A stretch of 42,095 nucleotides of DNA from a virus: positions 1 through 42,095 of the IMG/VR virus record IMGVR_UViG_3300023118_000241; one strand, given 5' to 3'. Below, in pieces: positions 2,643 through 35,834 of this stretch. The translations under genes and the position numbers were made by a program. The notes under the pieces are model-generated. The model saw nothing but the letters and a program-made list of their open reading frames with translations. It was not told the DNA's origin and made no database searches. Each line of letters opens with the position of its first letter. The stretch's first letter is position 1.

Positions 2643-3972
2643 ATCTTGTTTCAAGAAGGGGGCCAAAGTCCAGCACGGCATCCATGGCCCGGGTAGCATC
2701 GCGTCGGTTGATGGCGATCGCGCGCTTGTTGTTTTCGAGAACGGGCATTCGCTGTCGACGCTGACCGCTCATCTGCGGTACCGGTCGGTTTCGTCACCCA
2801 CGCCAGCGAACGACAACGCCACACCCGAGCCGGCGCACGATCGGGCATCACCAGCGCCTGCCGACGCCTCAAGACGCATGGCGACGCCTCCCGCCCAGCC
2901 TAAGCGTGACATTGAAGTGATCACGCCATCGGACTGGGACGGTAAGCCCGTACCGGAGAGGGAATGGTACATCGACGATCTGATCCCGATGCGGCAGGTC
3001 ACCATTCTCTATGGAGATGGCGGCACCGGTAAATCACTATTAGCCTTGCAGGTCTCCGCGGCCGGCGCGATGGGTGTCACCACACTGGAGATGGCGCCGC
3101 GCCCCGGCAGAGCGTTCTATCTTGGTGCGGAGGATGAGGCGGAAGAATTTCACCGGCGGTTGATAGACATCACCAACGGCCACGGGCGAACGCTTGCGAA
3201 CCTGTCCGACTTCCGGCTGGTGCCACTTGCTGGTTTGGACGCTTTGCTTTCCGTGCCTGACCGCAACGGGACGATGACGCCAACACCGCTCTGGAAGGCA
3301 ACGGCCGACTACGCTCGGGAGTTTAGGCCGCAGATCATGGTCATGGACACGGTCGCCGACCTGTTCGGTGGTGATGAGATCAAGCGAGGGCAGGCCAGGC
3401 AGTTCGTCGGCATGCTGAAGGGGCTGGCGATCGAGATTGATTGCGCTGTCATCTTGCTCGCCCATCCGTCGGTTCAGGGCATGCAAAGCGGGACAGGCTC
3501 TTCAGGTTCGACAGGATGGAGCAACAGCGCGCGATCGCGGCTCTACCTCACGCGGCCAGACAGCAAGGATGCGGATAGTGATCTGCGCATCCTGAAAACG
3601 ATGAAGTCGAACTACGGCACGATCGGCGCTGAGCTCAAAATGAAGTGGCACAGAGGCGCGTTCGTTCTCGACGACGGCAAGCCAGCGCCGGGTTCCGCAA
3701 TGATTGCGGCAAAAGCGGAACGTGTTTTCCGAGATGTGCTGTCAGCATTGAACCGAAGCGGAGAGCGCGTCGCCAAGACAAAGGGTGTCAACTACGCCCC
3801 CAAGATAATGGCGGAAAGGCCAGATGCGGAAGGCGTAACAGCAAAGCAGTTGGAAGCCGCGATGCAACGTCTACTGATCAATGGCGAGGTCAAGATCGTC
3901 ATGGAGGGTCCCCCTACAAAACTTCGGCAGCGGCTCATTCTGACATCGGAAGACTTTGGGCCAAAAGACTGA
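2620..3972 (+). CDS. RecA/RepA-type ATPase (AAA_25), replicative helicase-like
   Basis: A 450-residue protein. The first 50 residues resemble a KOW/DUF3553-like beta domain (GAKVQHGIHGPGSI, then VVFENGHS), followed by a Pro/Ala-rich linker. Residues about 105-340 form a RecA-like ATPase of the AAA_25/RepA class: Walker A YGDGGTGKS with Lys138 and Walker B IMVMDT with Asp243. The C-terminal 80 residues look like a winged helix (TAKQLEAAMQRLLINGEV). Such proteins act as hexameric helicases or loaders in phage and plasmid replication. ATG at 2620, preceded by GGAGAG, is preferred over an upstream GTG at 2590. A C-rich repeat region follows directly and may be its target. Confidence 0.82.
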   Translation: MNASAQPKSCFKKGAKVQHGIHGPGSIASVDGDRALVVFENGHSLSTLTAHLRYRSVSSPTPANDNATPEPAHDRASPAPADASRRMATPPAQPKRDIEVITPSDWDGKPVPEREWYIDDLIPMRQVTILYGDGGTGKSLLALQVSAAGAMGVTTLEMAPRPGRAFYLGAEDEAEEFHRRLIDITNGHGRTLANLSDFRLVPLAGLDALLSVPDRNGTMTPTPLWKATADYAREFRPQIMVMDTVADLFGGDEIKRGQARQFVGMLKGLAIEIDCAVILLAHPSVQGMQSGTGSSGSTGWSNSARSRLYLTRPDSKDADSDLRILKTMKSNYGTIGAELKMKWHRGAFVLDDGKPAPGSAMIAAKAERVFRDVLSALNRSGERVAKTKGVNYAPKIMAERPDAEGVTAKQLEAAMQRLLINGEVKIVMEGPPTKLRQRLILTSEDFGPKD

Positions 3973-4132
3973 ATGAGCACCTACCACCCCAGCCTACCAC
4001 CCCCCTACCAGCCCTGTGCCACCCCCCTGCCTTCCACCCCCCATACCCCCCATAGGGGTGGAACACCCCCGGTAGGGTGGAAGCCCTACCAGCCGTTCCA
4101 CGACCTATTTGTTCAAGAAAGGATCCGAGATC
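3973..4132. repeat. C-rich iteron-like region, G-quadruplex-prone on the minus strand; candidate origin
   Basis: About 115 bases carry degenerate 11-13-base units: CCTACCACCCC at 3980 and 3993, CCTACCAGCCC at 4004, then CCACCCCCC-type units to about 4050. The minus strand therefore has several runs of five or six G separated by short loops. A perfect hairpin GGTAGGG-TGGAAG-CCCTACC follows at 4071-4090. Position right after a helicase-type gene fits an origin or regulatory site. A plus-strand ORF through it is proline-rich and composition-driven. Confidence 0.5.
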
Positions 4133-4348
4133 ATGTTCGCAGTGAGCCCTTATTTTGCTAGCCGTGAGGTTTATGAAAAGCAGGAGGACGGTCGTATGAA
4201 GTCCTACTGGAATCCATGCCGAGTGATTGGCGTGACCAACAACGAGGACGGGGAGGCAGCATATGTTGTCGAATACGTCCAAGGCGGCATCACCTATATC
4301 GAGACGGAAACCTGCCTAAAACGCAATGAGCCCGGTAGTCCGCTGTGA
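4133..4348 (+). CDS. Hypothetical early protein
   Basis: A 71-residue protein starting at ATG 4133, with AAAGGA about ten bases upstream. It reads as a small beta-rich domain (NPCRVIGVTNNEDGEAAYVV, then VQGGITYIETETCL), possibly SH3- or KOW-like; this is a guess from strand pattern. Its stop overlaps the next start (GTGA), so it belongs to the same early operon. Confidence 0.6.
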   Translation: MFAVSPYFASREVYEKQEDGRMKSYWNPCRVIGVTNNEDGEAAYVVEYVQGGITYIETETCLKRNEPGSPL

Positions 4349-4563
4349 GGGGGATCACATCACGCACCAGAGTGCAGAACCTGGGCGGCCCATTCCCCGG
4401 CGTAGGGCATGCGCCCGGGATGCACCATGACAAGGTCCTGCCGCGCGGCCAGCGGGCAGCCTTTGAGAAGCTCAACGATCTGGCAGGGATGCGCGTGAGC
4501 CTGATTGATTTCGGCAGCCTGGTGGCAGCTAATGACAATGCGAAGACGGAGGGTGCAGCTTGA
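4345..4563 (+). CDS. Hypothetical early protein
   Basis: A 72-residue protein that starts with GTG overlapping the previous stop; an internal ATG at 4420 is an alternative. The second half looks protein-like (GQRAAFEKLNDLAGMRVSLI) and ends in AANDN, a tail also seen near the starts of neighbouring proteins. Function unknown. The stop overlaps the next start (TTGA). Confidence 0.5.
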   Translation: MRGITSRTRVQNLGGPFPGVGHAPGMHHDKVLPRGQRAAFEKLNDLAGMRVSLIDFGSLVAANDNAKTEGAA

Positions 4564-5690
4564 AGTTCAAGACATTCGCAGAGGCGCTGACAGCCGAACG
4601 GCCGGCACCGGTCGCATTCAAAAAACCACCCGTTGCCGCCAACGACAACAAACCGGCTAAGCCACGGCTTGCATGGCCAGCCTTCGAGCGCCTAGCCCAC
4701 CGGGGCGATAAGGCGCGCTTGTTTGCTCTCCGCCACTGGCGTGACCTCGTCTACCCGCAACAAGTTGTGATCGCCGAAGACACGACCGAATATGAGCCGG
4801 AAGCGGCAATTGAGATCCGGCCATCGGAAGCGGAGCTGCTCGGCGCCGTCGGTTGGAAGGTGACGAAACGCGAGCGGTGGTATTTCACCGGTGAGATGGT
4901 GAACGTCTACGAATCCACGCCGGACACTCCACCAAAACTGCGGACAGACAGAAACGGCGATGTCGAGGCCAAGCTCGGCAGCTTGATGTTTCGCAAGGGC
5001 GAGCTCATCGAATGGGGAAGGACCCGAAAAGGCGCACCTTTGAAGCCGGTAGAGCGATCGCGAGGCGCTAAGGGTGGCGGCGCAAAGCAGGGCAGGACGG
5101 ACAGCGAGATTTGGTCTTATCTCCGATTAAATGGTGCGGTTTCTCCGCTGTTGGCGCAGCCCTACCAAAAGCCAATGTCCAGCGAGCCGGCGATCTGTGA
5201 TTGCTACATCCCGTTACCGCGAGAAGAGCCCAGCGAGAGGAACAAGCGCGGCCGGTTTGGTGTCGTCGAGGCTCGCCAGCTGCTGATGGAGCTTGGAGTT
5301 AATGGGAAAGTGCCATTCGAAGATCTGCCATTCCCCGCCACACGGTGCGCCGACGGATTGATCGGTGGAGGGCAGTGGATTGGAGGTGTCAAGCAGCCGA
5401 AGCCAACAGCCTCCGAGCCGGCTGGTCGCGAATTCAACTTCGTCAGTCAATTCGAAACGGTCGACTACTTGCACCATCTCCGAGATCGCCTTGGCACGCA
5501 CGCGAAGGTGCTGGACATGGCGATAACCGACGCCACCGCAACGGACATCGGTATTGCAATGGGTCTTGCAGCTGCCTACGCGACAAAGCGAGGCGCGGCG
5601 TTGATCGATGAGGCAATCGACAAGTTGATTGAGATAGACGAGACGGTCAGAGGCGACTTCGGATTAATTCCGGAAAAAATAGCAGCCTGA
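4560..5690 (+). CDS. Hypothetical protein, last gene of the early operon
   Basis: A 376-residue protein not recognised. It starts with TTG in a TTGA overlap with the previous stop, with GGAGG eight bases upstream, so the rare start is well supported. Residues 1-45 are a low-complexity Lys/Pro/Ala leader. About residues 45-65 hold a basic helical patch (LAHRGDKARLFALRHWRD), and the centre is rich in Arg/Lys/Gly, as in nucleic-acid-binding proteins. The C-terminal 90 residues are helical. No catalytic motif was seen. A strong terminator 55 bases downstream ends the operon. Its position suggests a role in replication or early takeover, which is inference only. Confidence 0.65.
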   Translation: MKFKTFAEALTAERPAPVAFKKPPVAANDNKPAKPRLAWPAFERLAHRGDKARLFALRHWRDLVYPQQVVIAEDTTEYEPEAAIEIRPSEAELLGAVGWKVTKRERWYFTGEMVNVYESTPDTPPKLRTDRNGDVEAKLGSLMFRKGELIEWGRTRKGAPLKPVERSRGAKGGGAKQGRTDSEIWSYLRLNGAVSPLLAQPYQKPMSSEPAICDCYIPLPREEPSERNKRGRFGVVEARQLLMELGVNGKVPFEDLPFPATRCADGLIGGGQWIGGVKQPKPTASEPAGREFNFVSQFETVDYLHHLRDRLGTHAKVLDMAITDATATDIGIAMGLAAAYATKRGAALIDEAIDKLIEIDETVRGDFGLIPEKIAA

Positions 5691-5744
5691 TATCCAGTCA
5701 ACCGGATGCTCGCACCGTTTGTATATGAAGGGTTAGAAACCCAG

Positions 5745-5766
5745 CGGCACCTTCGGGTGCCGTTTT
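5745..5766 (+). terminator. Intrinsic terminator of the early operon
   Basis: CGGCACC, a TTCG tetraloop, GGTGCCG, then TTTT: a seven-pair stem with a stable loop, 55 bases after the stop at 5690. Confidence 0.85.
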
Positions 5767-5829
5767 CAATTGGGGCGGCCAAAGTTGAGCGGACGTTTTA
5801 AACTCGCTTTCGATGCCGGGCCTGCCCCA

Positions 5830-6690
5830 TCAACTTCCATGGCAGTTCTTGTACTTCATTCCATTGCCGCACCAACAGCGTGCGTTTCTCGGTAGCTTGT
5901 CTCGAACTTGTTGGCCAGCAGCGCTGATCTTCATCTCCCTGATTGAAAATCCGTCGCGCAAATTTATTCTATCTAAAGTGTACAGGACGTCCGACGCTTC
6001 GTGAGGTGAGAACCGGCCCGATGCGACGTGTCGTCCCTCAGGACTTAGTGTAATGCTGCCGACGAGCAAGTTCTTCCCTACCGTACCGGCCGTTCTTTCG
6101 TCATCCGATAATGTCTTGATTAGCCCAACAATCCGCTGTTCTACGGCGTTTTTGGGCTTTTGCTCTAGGAGCATCTGCCGAAGTATTCGCAGTTCGTCGC
6201 CGTATAGGCCTTGATTGATCCCATTGACAAACACGGCCTTCATAGAGCCGCCTGGAGATATGGCCAGACGATGGCAAAACTCCTTTGCCGGCTCTGAAAG
6301 CATCATGCCTTTTTCGTCCTCAATATTGCTTATCGATCCAATGAACGGGCCAACGCCCATGGCGTAGCCGCTTATCGCAACAGTCAAGGCTTGGTTTCGG
6401 AAAAGCATATTGTCGGTGAACTTCCGGGTAGCAATTTCCGCGAACGAGTCGATTGTATCGATGAACCGCGTCTTTTTAGCGTCTGAGAACGCCTCGTGAA
6501 GCCATGTCTTGGTTTCGTGTCGACCAGCTTTGGCAAGCCCTGTGTAGGCGTAGAGGGCCAACGCGTCGAGCGCCTCTATGGTGCCAGTTTTGCCGGATAG
6601 TTCCTCCATCGTGACACCCTTGTTTGACAATCTCATGTCGGACGCCATGAGCACGAATTCAGGCGTTGCAGCAGTTATTATGAGGGTCAT
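5830..6690 (-). CDS. Proteasome-like Ntn-hydrolase with C-terminal SEC-C zinc motif
   Basis: A 286-residue protein on the strand opposite to all phage operons around it. After removal of Met1, Thr2 would become N-terminal. Counting from it, Asp is residue 17 (ASDMR) and Lys is residue 33 (SGK), the same spacing as the catalytic Thr1-Asp17-Lys33 set of proteasome beta subunits and Anbu-type peptidases. YTGLAKAGR (49-57) and SGYAMGVGPFIGSI (107-120) fit the conserved beta-subunit core (GLxAD and GxDxxGP positions). The last 16 residues are a SEC-C motif with Cys272, Cys274, Cys283 and His284 (CWCGNGMKYKNCHG), which binds zinc. Activity and substrate are unknown. The weak ribosome site, opposite strand and location between early and late phage genes mark it as cargo (a moron). 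Confidence 0.75.
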   Translation of the reverse strand: MTLIITAATPEFVLMASDMRLSNKGVTMEELSGKTGTIEALDALALYAYTGLAKAGRHETKTWLHEAFSDAKKTRFIDTIDSFAEIATRKFTDNMLFRNQALTVAISGYAMGVGPFIGSISNIEDEKGMMLSEPAKEFCHRLAISPGGSMKAVFVNGINQGLYGDELRILRQMLLEQKPKNAVEQRIVGLIKTLSDDERTAGTVGKNLLVGSITLSPEGRHVASGRFSPHEASDVLYTLDRINLRDGFSIREMKISAAGQQVRDKLPRNARCWCGNGMKYKNCHGS

Positions 6691-6841: not shown

Positions 6842-7018
6842 TTATTTCTTGGCCAGATACGCCTCAATCTTCGCTCGGCCTGGACCCGCAGCCTTAATAG
6901 CCTCAAGGGCCTTGGCCTTCGTGATCCCGTGCTTGTCCATGAGGTATTTAACTTCGTAATCCTCGCTACCGGAAACGAAACGGCTATCAACGCCGCGTTT
7001 GTTCTTATCGTCAGACAT
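6842..7018 (-). CDS. DUF3606-like small protein
   Basis: A 58-residue protein. It starts MSDDKNKRG, then has SEDYEVKYLMDKHGITKAKA and ends EAYLAKK, which matches the DUF3606 pattern (acidic/basic N-terminus, EDYEVxYW-like centre, one helical hairpin). DUF3606 proteins are common in rhizobia and have no known function. ATG has GAGGAG eight bases upstream. It lies on the same strand as, and upstream of, the proteasome-like gene, separated by the leader ORF, so the two may share a transcript. Confidence 0.75.
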   Translation of the reverse strand: MSDDKNKRGVDSRFVSGSEDYEVKYLMDKHGITKAKALEAIKAAGPGRAKIEAYLAKK

Positions 7019-7084: not shown

Positions 7085-7390
7085 ATGGTAAAGTCAGAGG
7101 TTCGCTCAGAAGAGGCAGAGCGCTATCGCAGGCTATATCGTACAGCCCGATGGCGAAGCCTTCGTCGCCACCAGCTTGGCAACCAGCCACTCTGCGAGTG
7201 GTGCCTTGAGCGAGAGGACGTTACCGAGGCGACTGAGGTGCATCATTCTGTGCCCCACCGAGGCGACATGGAGCTCTTCTGGTCCGGCCCTTTCGTCTCG
7301 ACATGCAAGCCATGCCATGCTTCGCGTGGTCAGCTCGAGGACAACGGGAAGACCGTCGTCCGCTATGGCGCGGATGGGTGGCCGATATAG
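7085..7390 (+). CDS. HNH endonuclease (packaging-associated)
   Basis: A 101-residue HNH nuclease. Zinc cysteines are Cys37/Cys40 (CEWC) and Cys74/Cys77 (CKPC). The HNH core is VHHSVPHRG (His53, His54, His58), ending at CHAS. In HK97-type phages an HNH protein next to terminase is often needed for cos-end cleavage, and this one lies 100 bases before terS, the standard place. The ribosome site is AGGGTGA. It is the first gene of the late operon. Confidence 0.88.
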   Translation: MVKSEVRSEEAERYRRLYRTARWRSLRRHQLGNQPLCEWCLEREDVTEATEVHHSVPHRGDMELFWSGPFVSTCKPCHASRGQLEDNGKTVVRYGADGWPI

Positions 7391-30295: not shown

Positions 30296-30370
30296 ACTCA
30301 CCGCCTCATCATCCATTATGGACACTTGGTTGCGATTAAGCCATCTTCGCTCGGCAAGATGGAGGCAAGC

Positions 30371-31045
30371 ATGACGCCTGGAGAAAAGGCTACGGAAGAA
30401 CTGGCGAAGCTAGGGCAAAAATCTCTCGACACCGTCGACAGGTTGGGAGGCTGGACAGATAGTGTATTCGGCAAGGGGCTCCGCCACCTCGGGAGTGCTT
30501 TCGAGGATAGCATGGCCGGATTCCGCCTGAGAAACCGGATCAAGGTGATAGAAAAGACGAGGGCGGCTATCGATCAATCGGGATTAGCCGGGAAGACCCG
30601 ACCACTCGATCCACGAATTTCGATGCCCATAATGGACGCCATTTCAGACGAGAGCGATGAAACCCTGCAGGACGTGTGGGCGGCCTATATCAAGAATGCT
30701 GTAGACCCTAAAAAGGCCAATCCAGACCGGATCCTGATTGAGGTTGTCCGACGTTTAGAGCCTGGTGATTGGCCCATTCTGAAAAAGACGTTTCCGAAAG
30801 CGGTCGGCAGAATGACCAGCGAGGATTTCGGCCTATCCGACACTGAGCTTGTCCAAGCTTTGGACAGAATGGAAACTCTTCAACTATTCGATTATGATGA
30901 TCCCACCATTCATTATCTGGTGATGGGGAAGGGCGATGAGAAGCGCTTGATGATCTCAGTGGGTGACGCTGATTACTACGCCACCAGGCTACTTAGGCGC
31001 CTAGCGATCGCCACGACGGATGATAACGAGGAGCATGAGACATGA
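30371..31045 (+). CDS. Abi-alpha (DUF4393) family protein
   Basis: A 224-residue protein that I place in the Abi-alpha/DUF4393 family by pattern. RLRNRIKVIEKTRAAIDQSG is followed by RPLDPRISMPIMDAISDESD, then DETLQDVWAAYIKNAVDP, a conserved signature; the C-terminal half looks like a winged helix (LSDTELVQALDRMETLQLF). The family is linked to abortive infection in some bacteria, and its mechanism is unknown. GGAGG lies before ATG 30371. It is followed by a 42-residue ORF with overlapping stop and start (ATGA). No membrane segment. Confidence 0.75.
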   Translation: MTPGEKATEELAKLGQKSLDTVDRLGGWTDSVFGKGLRHLGSAFEDSMAGFRLRNRIKVIEKTRAAIDQSGLAGKTRPLDPRISMPIMDAISDESDETLQDVWAAYIKNAVDPKKANPDRILIEVVRRLEPGDWPILKKTFPKAVGRMTSEDFGLSDTELVQALDRMETLQLFDYDDPTIHYLVMGKGDEKRLMISVGDADYYATRLLRRLAIATTDDNEEHET

Positions 31046-33556: not shown

Positions 33557-34600
33557 ATGGCAAACGCCGCACGATCCAAGCCTCTTCTGGCTGACGACAA
33601 GCCGCTGCGCTCTCGTGCTCGCAAGCCGCGCGACCAGCTACAGCCCAACCTTCCGCTCGACCCCATGCCAAAGCGCATTGAGCCCTGCCTGGCATTGCTG
33701 AAGAGCAAGCCGCCCGTAGGGCCGCACTGGGCTTTCGAGGTGAAGTGGGACGGATACCGCCTCGCGGTCCACAAAGAGCTGAAGGGCGTCCGGATCCTCA
33801 CGCGCGGCGGGCATGACTGGACGCACCGTTTCCCCCTCATCGAAGCCGCAGCGATGGCCTTGCCTGTTGCCACCTTCATCCTCGACGGCGAGGCCGTCGT
33901 GCTCGACGAGCAAGGCCGATCAGATTTCAATATGCTTCAGCGTTCGCTAGGCGGGCGCGGCGGCAAGGAGACATCGCGAGACGCGATCTTCATGGCCTTT
34001 GATGTCCTGTACTTTGATGGACACGACTACACCCAGACAGAACTCTCCCGACGCCGTAGCCTTCTCGAGTCCTTGCTACCCTTCGAGACCAGCGGCGCGA
34101 TCCGGCTATCGGAAGAGGTCGAAGCCGATGGTGCTGCGCTCTTCCGGGCCGCGTGCGACCATGGCCTTGAAGGCATCATCGCCAAGGACAAGCGAAGCCT
34201 CTATCGTCCCGGCCGCGGTGGCGACTGGCTCAAGATCAAGTGCATCCAGAGCGAAAGCTTCATGGTGGTTGGCTATGAGTATTCCACCTCAGCGCGGGGC
34301 GGAATTGGCAGCCTGTTACTTGCCGCGCGCAGGCGGGATGAGTGGGTCTATGTTGGCTCTGTCGGTACCGGCTTTAAGGAGCGAGAAGCGACCGCGTTGC
34401 GCTCCACCTTGGACAAGATCAAGACTAAAGCGCCGGCAGTCGCCTACGCCGGCCGCCGCAAGGATCTGGTGTGGGTGCAGCCGACGCTCATTGCTGAGAT
34501 CGAGTATCGAGCTTGGACCGGTGACGGCAAGCTTCGGCACGCCTCATACAAGGGCTTGCGAGAGGTGCAGGATAATGCGGCGGTCTATGAGCTAGAGTAG
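33557..34600 (+). CDS. ATP-dependent DNA ligase (LigD-type ligase domain only)
   Basis: A 347-residue DNA ligase with the ligase and OB domains of LigD but no polymerase or nuclease part. Motif I is EVKWDGYR with Lys63 as the adenylated residue. Further motifs are ILDGEAVV (III), GLEGIIAKDK (IV) and WLKIKC (V), and the OB domain follows (SFMVVGYEYSTSARGGIGSL). Rhizobia carry several such stand-alone ligases in NHEJ. No Ku gene is present in the window. It shares an operon with the DUF982-like gene. Confidence 0.9.
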   Translation: MANAARSKPLLADDKPLRSRARKPRDQLQPNLPLDPMPKRIEPCLALLKSKPPVGPHWAFEVKWDGYRLAVHKELKGVRILTRGGHDWTHRFPLIEAAAMALPVATFILDGEAVVLDEQGRSDFNMLQRSLGGRGGKETSRDAIFMAFDVLYFDGHDYTQTELSRRRSLLESLLPFETSGAIRLSEEVEADGAALFRAACDHGLEGIIAKDKRSLYRPGRGGDWLKIKCIQSESFMVVGYEYSTSARGGIGSLLLAARRRDEWVYVGSVGTGFKEREATALRSTLDKIKTKAPAVAYAGRRKDLVWVQPTLIAEIEYRAWTGDGKLRHASYKGLREVQDNAAVYELE

Positions 34601-34644: not shown

Positions 34645-35535
34645 TCATATCAGACCGAGCCATACGCTAAGAGACAGAAGAACGAAAAAAAACGCGAGAG
34701 CGGCTAGGCACAATATCGCGATAGCCAGCTTTTTGTGGCGCAGGGGTAGCCCGCCCAAACCCGTGTTCACGAAAATTCCAACATCCAGCGCAAGCGAATG
34801 GCCGGAAACATAGAGAAGGTCGGAAGCTAGTTCATCTGCGAGCTGCGGGTACTCTAGTGTTTGACCAAGCCCTGTGAGGCCCGGACGCATCTTTTGTCTC
34901 GTGGTCAGAATGCGACGCGATTCCTCATCTTTGGGCATCATGGGTGGGAATGCTCGCGGACCAACCAGCGACATATCGCCCCTTATAACATTGAGAAGCT
35001 GTGGAAGGTGGTCAAGGCTGTTTTTTCTAAGGATCGAGCCGAGCATCGTCGGCTCACTGGATGGTTCTTCAGCGAGGATTGAGGTTCTGAACCTGTAAGA
35101 ATTGAATGGCTTCCCGTGCCGCCCGAGTCTTTTGACTGAGACGATAACGGGGCCTCCTTCCAACGCCACTAAAGCCACCACCACAATCAGGACGGGTGCA
35201 ATCAGTACCAAGGTTAACGTGGACACGGAAATGTCCATTATTCGTTTGGCTCCCATTGCCACGAATCGTCGATCGCTCATTCGGAATGCCGCCAGCATTA
35301 AACCGCAGGCACAAACGAGCTTGCCCAGATCGCCGGGAGTCTCTTCTACAAAGGCCGACCATTCTTCATGATATCGCGCCCGATCATCATCGCCTAGAAG
35401 AGCCGTTGCTGCTGATATCAACTTGGTGACCAAACGAGGGCGCCAAGCTTTGAATTCATCAGAGAGTATGTTGGAACCTGCTGCCAAAAGTAGCGCGGCA
35501 AGAAACGCAATAGTGGTGATCACGATGCTACCCAT
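34645..35535 (-). CDS. Membrane sugar transferase with PadR-associated N-terminal domain
   Basis: A 296-residue protein from ATG 35535 (GGGAGG upstream). Residues 1-90 form a membrane segment (IVITTIAFLAALLLAAG) plus a helical region (EFKAWRPRLVTKLISAATAL, then RARYHEEWSAFVEETPGDLG) often seen after PadR genes in rhizobia. Residues about 95-255 are a bacterial sugar transferase (KRIMDISVSTLTLVLIAPVL, RFRTS, NSLDHLPQLLNVIRGDMSLV, GPRAFPPM, RPGLTG). These start exopolysaccharide chains on a lipid carrier. The usual KFRTM motif is RFRTS here, and C-terminal TM segments follow. It overlaps the PadR gene by 16 bases. Confidence 0.8.
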   Translation of the reverse strand: MGSIVITTIAFLAALLLAAGSNILSDEFKAWRPRLVTKLISAATALLGDDDRARYHEEWSAFVEETPGDLGKLVCACGLMLAAFRMSDRRFVAMGAKRIMDISVSTLTLVLIAPVLIVVVALVALEGGPVIVSVKRLGRHGKPFNSYRFRTSILAEEPSSEPTMLGSILRKNSLDHLPQLLNVIRGDMSLVGPRAFPPMMPKDEESRRILTTRQKMRPGLTGLGQTLEYPQLADELASDLLYVSGHSLALDVGIFVNTGLGGLPLRHKKLAIAILCLAALAFFFVLLSLSVWLGLI

Positions 35536-35834
35536 GCTCCGCCTCCCAAGTCCGGCGCGAGCGCGCTTCTCACAGCATTTACCTCGCGCTGACCTAAGGC
35601 AGTGACTCGATAAAAACGGCGACGAGGTCGACCCAGTGTTGTCGGATCGCCTACCTCCCATTCACTCGAAAGCCAACCTGCTTTTTCGAGCCGCATTAGA
35701 ATAGGATAGAGACTTCCCGACGCAAGTTCGGTCACCTTTGCAATCTCTGCTCCGGACACACCATGACCGGGGCGGCGCATAATGGCATTAATGACATCGA
35801 CCGTCTGGGCCGTTAATCGTACAGATTTGCTCAT
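35520..35834 (-). CDS. PadR-family regulator
   Basis: A 104-residue winged-helix PadR regulator: DVINAIMRRPGHGVSGAEIA, then LASGSLYPILMRLEKAGWL, the conserved recognition helix, then RPRRRFYRVTALGQREV. It probably represses itself and the overlapping sugar transferase gene. Confidence 0.9.
   Translation of the reverse strand: MSKSVRLTAQTVDVINAIMRRPGHGVSGAEIAKVTELASGSLYPILMRLEKAGWLSSEWEVGDPTTLGRPRRRFYRVTALGQREVNAVRSALAPDLGGGAWVAS

Follow-up and report, generated by a model that had tools for sequence, protein, structure and literature searches.

In the analysed window, i.e., the whole 42,095-base virus record, a minus-strand gene was found whose product combines a predicted proteasome-family Ntn hydrolase, with an alpha-beta-beta-alpha sandwich fold, and a C-terminal SEC-C zinc-binding motif (hereafter, the Ntn-SEC-C protein; Table 1). 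The assignment to the proteasome family is supported by the modelled fold, and the status of the gene as accessory (moron) cargo is supported by its slot, inversion, GC content, and patchy presence.

Table 1. Position of the Ntn-SEC-C gene, its features, and neighbouring genes in the window.
Feature	Position	Strand	Basis
Ntn-SEC-C gene (P0001), 286 aa	5830..6690	(-)	ATG-start ORF; homologs recovered
Proteasome-like Ntn domain (predicted), residues 1-250	5941..6690	(-)	AlphaFold2 (alignment A3) and Foldseek matches to Anbu and 20S proteasome
Thr2 codon, predicted N-terminal nucleophile (Thr1) once Met is removed	6685..6687	(-)	Invariant 8/8
Asp18 codon (mature Asp17)	6637..6639	(-)	Invariant 8/8
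Lys34 codon (mature Lys33)	6589..6591	(-)	Invariant 8/8, at mature 33-35; required by no search pattern
Codon for Gly51 in Y-T-G, a likely oxyanion-hole residue equivalent to proteasome Gly47	6538..6540	(-)	T-G invariant in homologs
Low-confidence linker, residues 251-267	5890..5940	(-)	pLDDT <50 over 250-273
SEC-C zinc-binding motif, residues 268-285	5836..5889	(-)	PF02810; CXCX8CH intact in L143, L064, L215, L309
Conserved phage gene MKFK..., 376 aa, slot border	4560..5690	(+)	Homolog adjoins the Ntn gene in L143
HNH-endonuclease-like gene, slot border, followed by TerS and TerL	7085..7390	(+)	53.6% to annotated HNH gene of MN988496
DUF3606 gene, 58 aa, upstream of the Ntn gene	6842..7018	(-)	PF12244, E 5e-12

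Active-Site Positions and SEC-C Motif

The N-terminus of the Ntn-SEC-C protein is well fixed, since no start codon intervenes between the ATG and an in-frame stop located four codons before it, and the M-T-L-I start recurs in four other homologs with SEC-C. It had been claimed in the sequence-only reading that, after removal of Met1, Thr, Asp, and Lys occupy proteasome positions 1, 17, and 33, and this proved to be exact: T2, D18, and K34 become mature T1, D17, and K33. In a control for chance, 742 ORFs of at least 150 aa from 56 loci were considered, of which 144 had an M[T/S] start, and D17 together with K33 was found in the Ntn-SEC-C gene only. The C-terminal SEC-C motif noted in the same reading is intact and occupies the last 18 residues; PF02810 scored 24.1 bits (cut-off 20.4), and CWCGNGMKYKNCH at residues 272–284 retains all predicted zinc ligands (C272, C274, C283, and H284), in agreement with the pattern CXCX8C[HC]. 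Beyond SEC-C, scans against Pfam, PHROGs, NCBIfam, and PADLOC revealed nothing convincing for this protein, and the Pfam Proteasome profile PF00227 gave no match at E-values up to 10; it should be noted that a PF00227 match is not defining for the divergent proteasome-like families of PMC8665760.

Predicted Fold

The AlphaFold2 model obtained with a five-sequence alignment of relatives (A3) had a pLDDT of 74.3 and a pTM of 0.77, two of the five models being folded. The predicted order of strands and helices matched that of proteasome subunits (S1-S2 ... H1-H2 ... H3-H4), with both H1 (residues 60–71) and H2 (residues 76–93) predicted, and the SGYAMGVGP segment, which had been thought to fit the core, was located on two predicted core strands (103–110 and 114–121). 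In a Foldseek search against the PDB, the best 50 matches were all proteasome or Anbu subunits (probability 1.00, E-values from about 1e-5 to 9e-5), with modest query-normalised TM-scores of 0.34–0.47 among these 50; the best match among viral structures was the gp30 protein of Gordonia phage Nymphadora (E = 8e-14). The single-sequence AlphaFold2 model, which was unfolded (pLDDT 37.7) and served as a negative control, yielded no proteasome match in the structure search; thus, the match is not a search artefact. When a profile of the Ntn part only was compared with PDB sequences, the top matches included connectase, at E = 0.14, and, at E = 0.28, proteasome beta-3, with which D17 and K33 were in register in the resulting alignment, these E-values being not significant alone and pointing in the same direction. 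The proteasome-like identity suggested earlier is therefore matched by the model, which predicts an Ntn sandwich like that of Anbu and the 20S proteasome and not another fold.

Homologs and Conservation of the Active Site

Direct protein searches of phages and plasmids (tblastn) and of viral contigs revealed no relative of the Ntn-SEC-C protein, and an initial scan with an N-terminal DNA pattern gave no match. A scan of viral contigs with a SEC-C DNA pattern yielded two full-length homologs, L064 and L143, with about 40% identity over the whole length, and looser N-terminal DNA patterns yielded L189 (without SEC-C) and L215 (30% identity, with SEC-C). The tblastn search from L215 led to gp30 of Gordonia phages (Nymphadora/Eviarto) and to the plasmid protein WP_083020499.1 of Mycobacterium marseillense, which share about 35% identity with one another and represent a SEC-C-less branch. 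When a profile was run against 395 genomes from the phylum of a Tannerella genome, a single Ntn-SEC-C protein of full length was recovered (L309, E = 2e-35), the only cellular example found; it adjoins a radC-like gene on a 2.6-kb stretch that could be a stray contig. In the order-wide search, 96 of the 98 genomes gave matches; among the matches listed, all except that of the L309 genome (G343) covered only the C-terminal SEC-C part and were largely proteins of SecA length. The gene is thus sporadic, with one full-length match among the 98 genomes of that order.

The sequence-only reading had proposed looking for the same architecture in other prophages and in defence islands. It was found in three other phages or prophages (L064, L143, and L215) and in one bacterial contig (L309). 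The context was not defence-island-like. In the L215 prophage, the gene lies outside the terminase slot, near genes for SRAP (PF02586) and KilA-N (PF04383) proteins (2686–3363, 3733–4494). Several candidates were rejected, namely, a relative from a genome contig that proved to be SecA, with likeness confined to SEC-C; a Pseudomonas plasmid match (H22), which is rich in repeats and unrelated outside its SEC-C tail; and the pattern matches L190, L191, L231, L248, L249, and L279, which were dismissed as chance.

Pairwise identity among the homologs was 15–42%, save for L064 and L143 (about 91%). T2, D18, K34, and the T-G pair were invariant in all eight sequences, including those with as little as about 20% identity, and R20 in the seven aligned, M-T, D-x-R, and Y-x-G being conserved by construction in L189 and L215, since the search patterns behind these two demanded them; the same elements were not preset for L143, L064, L307, L308, and L309, and Lys34 was preset for none. 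Thus, the homologs do not lack the three putative catalytic residues on which the earlier reading depended. In the mycobacterial sequence L308, T, D, K, and G are at exactly mature positions 1, 17, 33, and 47, while the likely oxyanion-hole Gly of the T-G pair is at mature position 50 in the window protein.

Genomic Position and Cargo Status

The window contains genes for a tyrosine integrase (1–1263) and a phage lysozyme (28516–29295), and its TerL shares about 90% identity with the large terminases of Sinorhizobium phage NV1.1.1 and Rhizobium phage RHph_TM3_3_14B; the window is taken to be a temperate siphophage or prophage of rhizobial (root-nodule-type) bacteria. The Ntn-SEC-C gene had been described as lying alone on the minus strand between the early and late operons. 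The strand was confirmed, but the gene is not strictly alone, because the DUF3606 gene lies just upstream on the same strand and may be co-transcribed with it. No convincing promoter match was found.

Both in the window and in L064 and L143, the Ntn-SEC-C gene is situated between the early genes and the HNH-like/TerS/TerL block and is inverted relative to both; the slot and the inversion are common to all three even though terminase identity of the window is 24.6% to L143 and 60% to L064. The early-side neighbour in the window and L143 is the MKFK... gene, and in 14 further kin loci a homolog of it stands ahead of the HNH-like gene; the HNH-like gene of the window had no Pfam match of its own. 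The Ntn-SEC-C gene was absent from all 54 terminase-matched loci, several of which stop short of the slot, and kin loci carried there endonuclease-like genes, a minus-strand DUF3606 gene (L005, i.e., Rhizobium phage RHph_Y3_1, and L016), or no clear gene. In L016, a second DUF3606-similar ORF was observed at 5744–5974 (-). The GC content of the Ntn-SEC-C gene was 51.7%, with most neighbouring genes at 58–61%; that of the phage homologs was about 8 points under the value of their own loci.

A second probable moron of the window is a gene for an Abi_alpha protein (PF14337, abortive infection alpha, E = 3e-8; 30326–31045 (+), GC 52.9%), located downstream of the lysozyme gene and possibly involved in phage exclusion. 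The right end of the window, with an ATP-dependent DNA ligase (33557–34600 (+)) and a bacterial sugar transferase (34645–35661 (-)), is possibly a host flank beyond the prophage.

Comparison with Known Proteasome-Like Proteins

According to the text of Fuchs, Alva and Lupas 2021 (PMC8665760), where 22 new proteasome-like families are described, phages carry PPH, AAH, CPH, PMI-4, and DAH, and there is little clue to the function of these phage-borne homologs. As described there, they share with the Ntn-SEC-C protein the proteasome-like fold, Thr1/Asp17/Lys33, carriage by phages and hosts, and no adjacent AAA+ unfoldase; no unfoldase gene adjoins the Ntn-SEC-C gene, whose neighbours are the DUF3606, HNH-like, and MKFK genes. 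PPH differs in being described as about 140 residues long and without helix H2, whereas the Ntn-SEC-C protein has 286 aa and both H1 and H2 predicted. DAH is reported in PMC8665760 from Actinobacteria and phages, with an extra C-terminal domain, a description that recalls the Gordonia and Mycobacterium relatives; of these, the one from Gordonia phages hints at a possible kinship with DAH (representative WP_085249540.1), compared here by description only. Gordonia gp30 and WP_083020499.1 share with the Ntn-SEC-C protein the series M-T-L...D18-x-R20...K34...[Y/F]-T-G and a similar length but differ in their low identity (about 22%) and in having no SEC-C tail.

Anbu, HslV, and the 20S proteasome beta subunit resemble the Ntn-SEC-C protein in predicted fold and catalytic positions, whereas no family-level sequence similarity to them was detectable. 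In addition, HslV has its partner unfoldase HslU in the operon and no HslU-like gene lies beside the Ntn-SEC-C gene, while Anbu has a C-terminal H5 coiled-coil helix, in place of which the Ntn-SEC-C protein ends in the low-confidence linker and SEC-C. These features set the Ntn-SEC-C protein apart from PPH, HslV, and Anbu. The earlier reading knew of no phage system built on this pair of domains. The main text of PMC8665760 names a SEC-C extension for none of the 22 families, and a full-text search of the open-access literature returned no paper describing the pairing of Ntn and SEC-C; however, only this pairing is new, because phage-borne proteasome homologs as such are already described in the same source.

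Putative Mode of Action and Alternatives

SecA uses its SEC-C domain to bind 70S ribosomes and also SecB (PMC6620043). In SecA, the CXCX8CH motif is placed on a flexible C-terminal linker, and likewise in the Ntn-SEC-C protein, where, however, it is fused to a predicted hydrolase. Among viral contigs, peptide deformylases ending in SEC-C were found in L066 and L172 (Pfam) and in L120 and L136 (by eye). Peptide deformylases act on nascent chains. A retropepsin-like aspartyl protease (PF13650) with C-terminal SEC-C was present in L112 and, as judged by eye, in L072, L083, L123, L130, L154, and L168. The Ntn-SEC-C family points to SEC-C as a targeting module used repeatedly by protein-acting phage enzymes (deformylases, retropepsin-like proteases, and the predicted Ntn-SEC-C hydrolase). 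SEC-C need not imply ribosome binding, since it was also met behind nuclease-like, glycosyltransferase-like, and retropepsin-like N-termini and since in SecA it binds SecB too.

It is tentatively proposed, at a little under even confidence, that the gene is a moron of a temperate rhizobial siphophage, expressed in lysogeny and encoding a proteasome-family Ntn hydrolase steered by SEC-C to ribosomes or nascent chains. This direction is preferred because the SecA SEC-C binds ribosomes and because SEC-C occurs on deformylases and retropepsin-like proteases. In the lysogen, the gene would be transcribed from its own strand, and host methionine aminopeptidase would expose Thr1, removal of Met being expected because the second residue is small. 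Thr1, activated by Lys33 and Asp17, would then attack a peptide or amide bond, as in proteasome subunits, while the linker and SEC-C tail would dock the enzyme on ribosomes (or on a SecB-like partner) in the manner of SecA, so that nascent or newly made proteins could be acted upon. The host, and hence the prophage, would benefit, most simply through removal of incoming-phage or aberrant nascent proteins. The wider generalisation that ribosome-tethered proteasome homologs of phages and bacteria hydrolyse nascent or new proteins co-translationally, and that prophages thereby block superinfecting phages, is considered distinctly unlikely.

A somewhat unlikely explanation is that the protein is a dedicated anti-phage or superinfection-exclusion effector, with the Ntn domain inactive in the lysogen and cutting a specific host or phage protein upon infection by another phage, SEC-C being the sensor or dock. 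The moron position, own orientation, and low GC content of the gene, the Abi_alpha-domain gene of the same phage, the inclusion of SEC-C in PADLOC E2-type defence models, and SEC-C proteins of other viral contigs with N-termini that were read as nuclease- or NTPase-like are consistent with such a role, whereas the PADLOC matches were confined to the SEC-C motif, with none over the catalytic domain, no toxin-antitoxin or regulator partner was seen, and the slot in kin loci held DUF3606 or endonuclease-like genes and no recognised defence genes. It is also judged unlikely that the protein is a non-proteolytic Ntn enzyme (a protein ligase resembling archaeal connectase or a small-molecule amidase) acting on one specific substrate without ring formation. 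Connectase was the strongest proteasome-like sequence match of the profiles (E = 0.018; 0.14 for the Ntn-only profile), the sequences of the Ntn-SEC-C proteins are distant from those of HslV and Anbu, and "proteasome-like", as used in the text of PMC8665760, implies neither assembly nor proteolysis; however, the connectase match was weak and mainly over the C-terminal half of the fold, and H1/H2, which are missing in connectase, are predicted here. Although no curated Ntn profile matched the sequence, a degenerate non-enzymatic gene, or a likeness to the proteasome active site that arose by chance, is highly improbable given the open 286-codon frame, the active site invariant across divergent homologs, and the predicted fold matching proteasomes, chance resemblance being rejected in view of the Foldseek matches, the homolog conservation, and the uniqueness of D17 with K33 among the 144 M[T/S] ORFs.

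With respect to the preferred reading as a SEC-C-steered hydrolase, the SEC-C tail gives phage proteasome homologs a testable docking partner (the ribosome or a SecB-like protein), and the Ntn-SEC-C family offers several divergent sequences to clone and a defined prophage setting; the role of phage proteasome homologs is thereby narrowed to a few direct experiments. Separately, proteins of about 933 aa with an NTPase-like middle part and C-terminal SEC-C, possibly defence proteins, were observed in five viral contigs (L097, L124, L139, L144, and L159).
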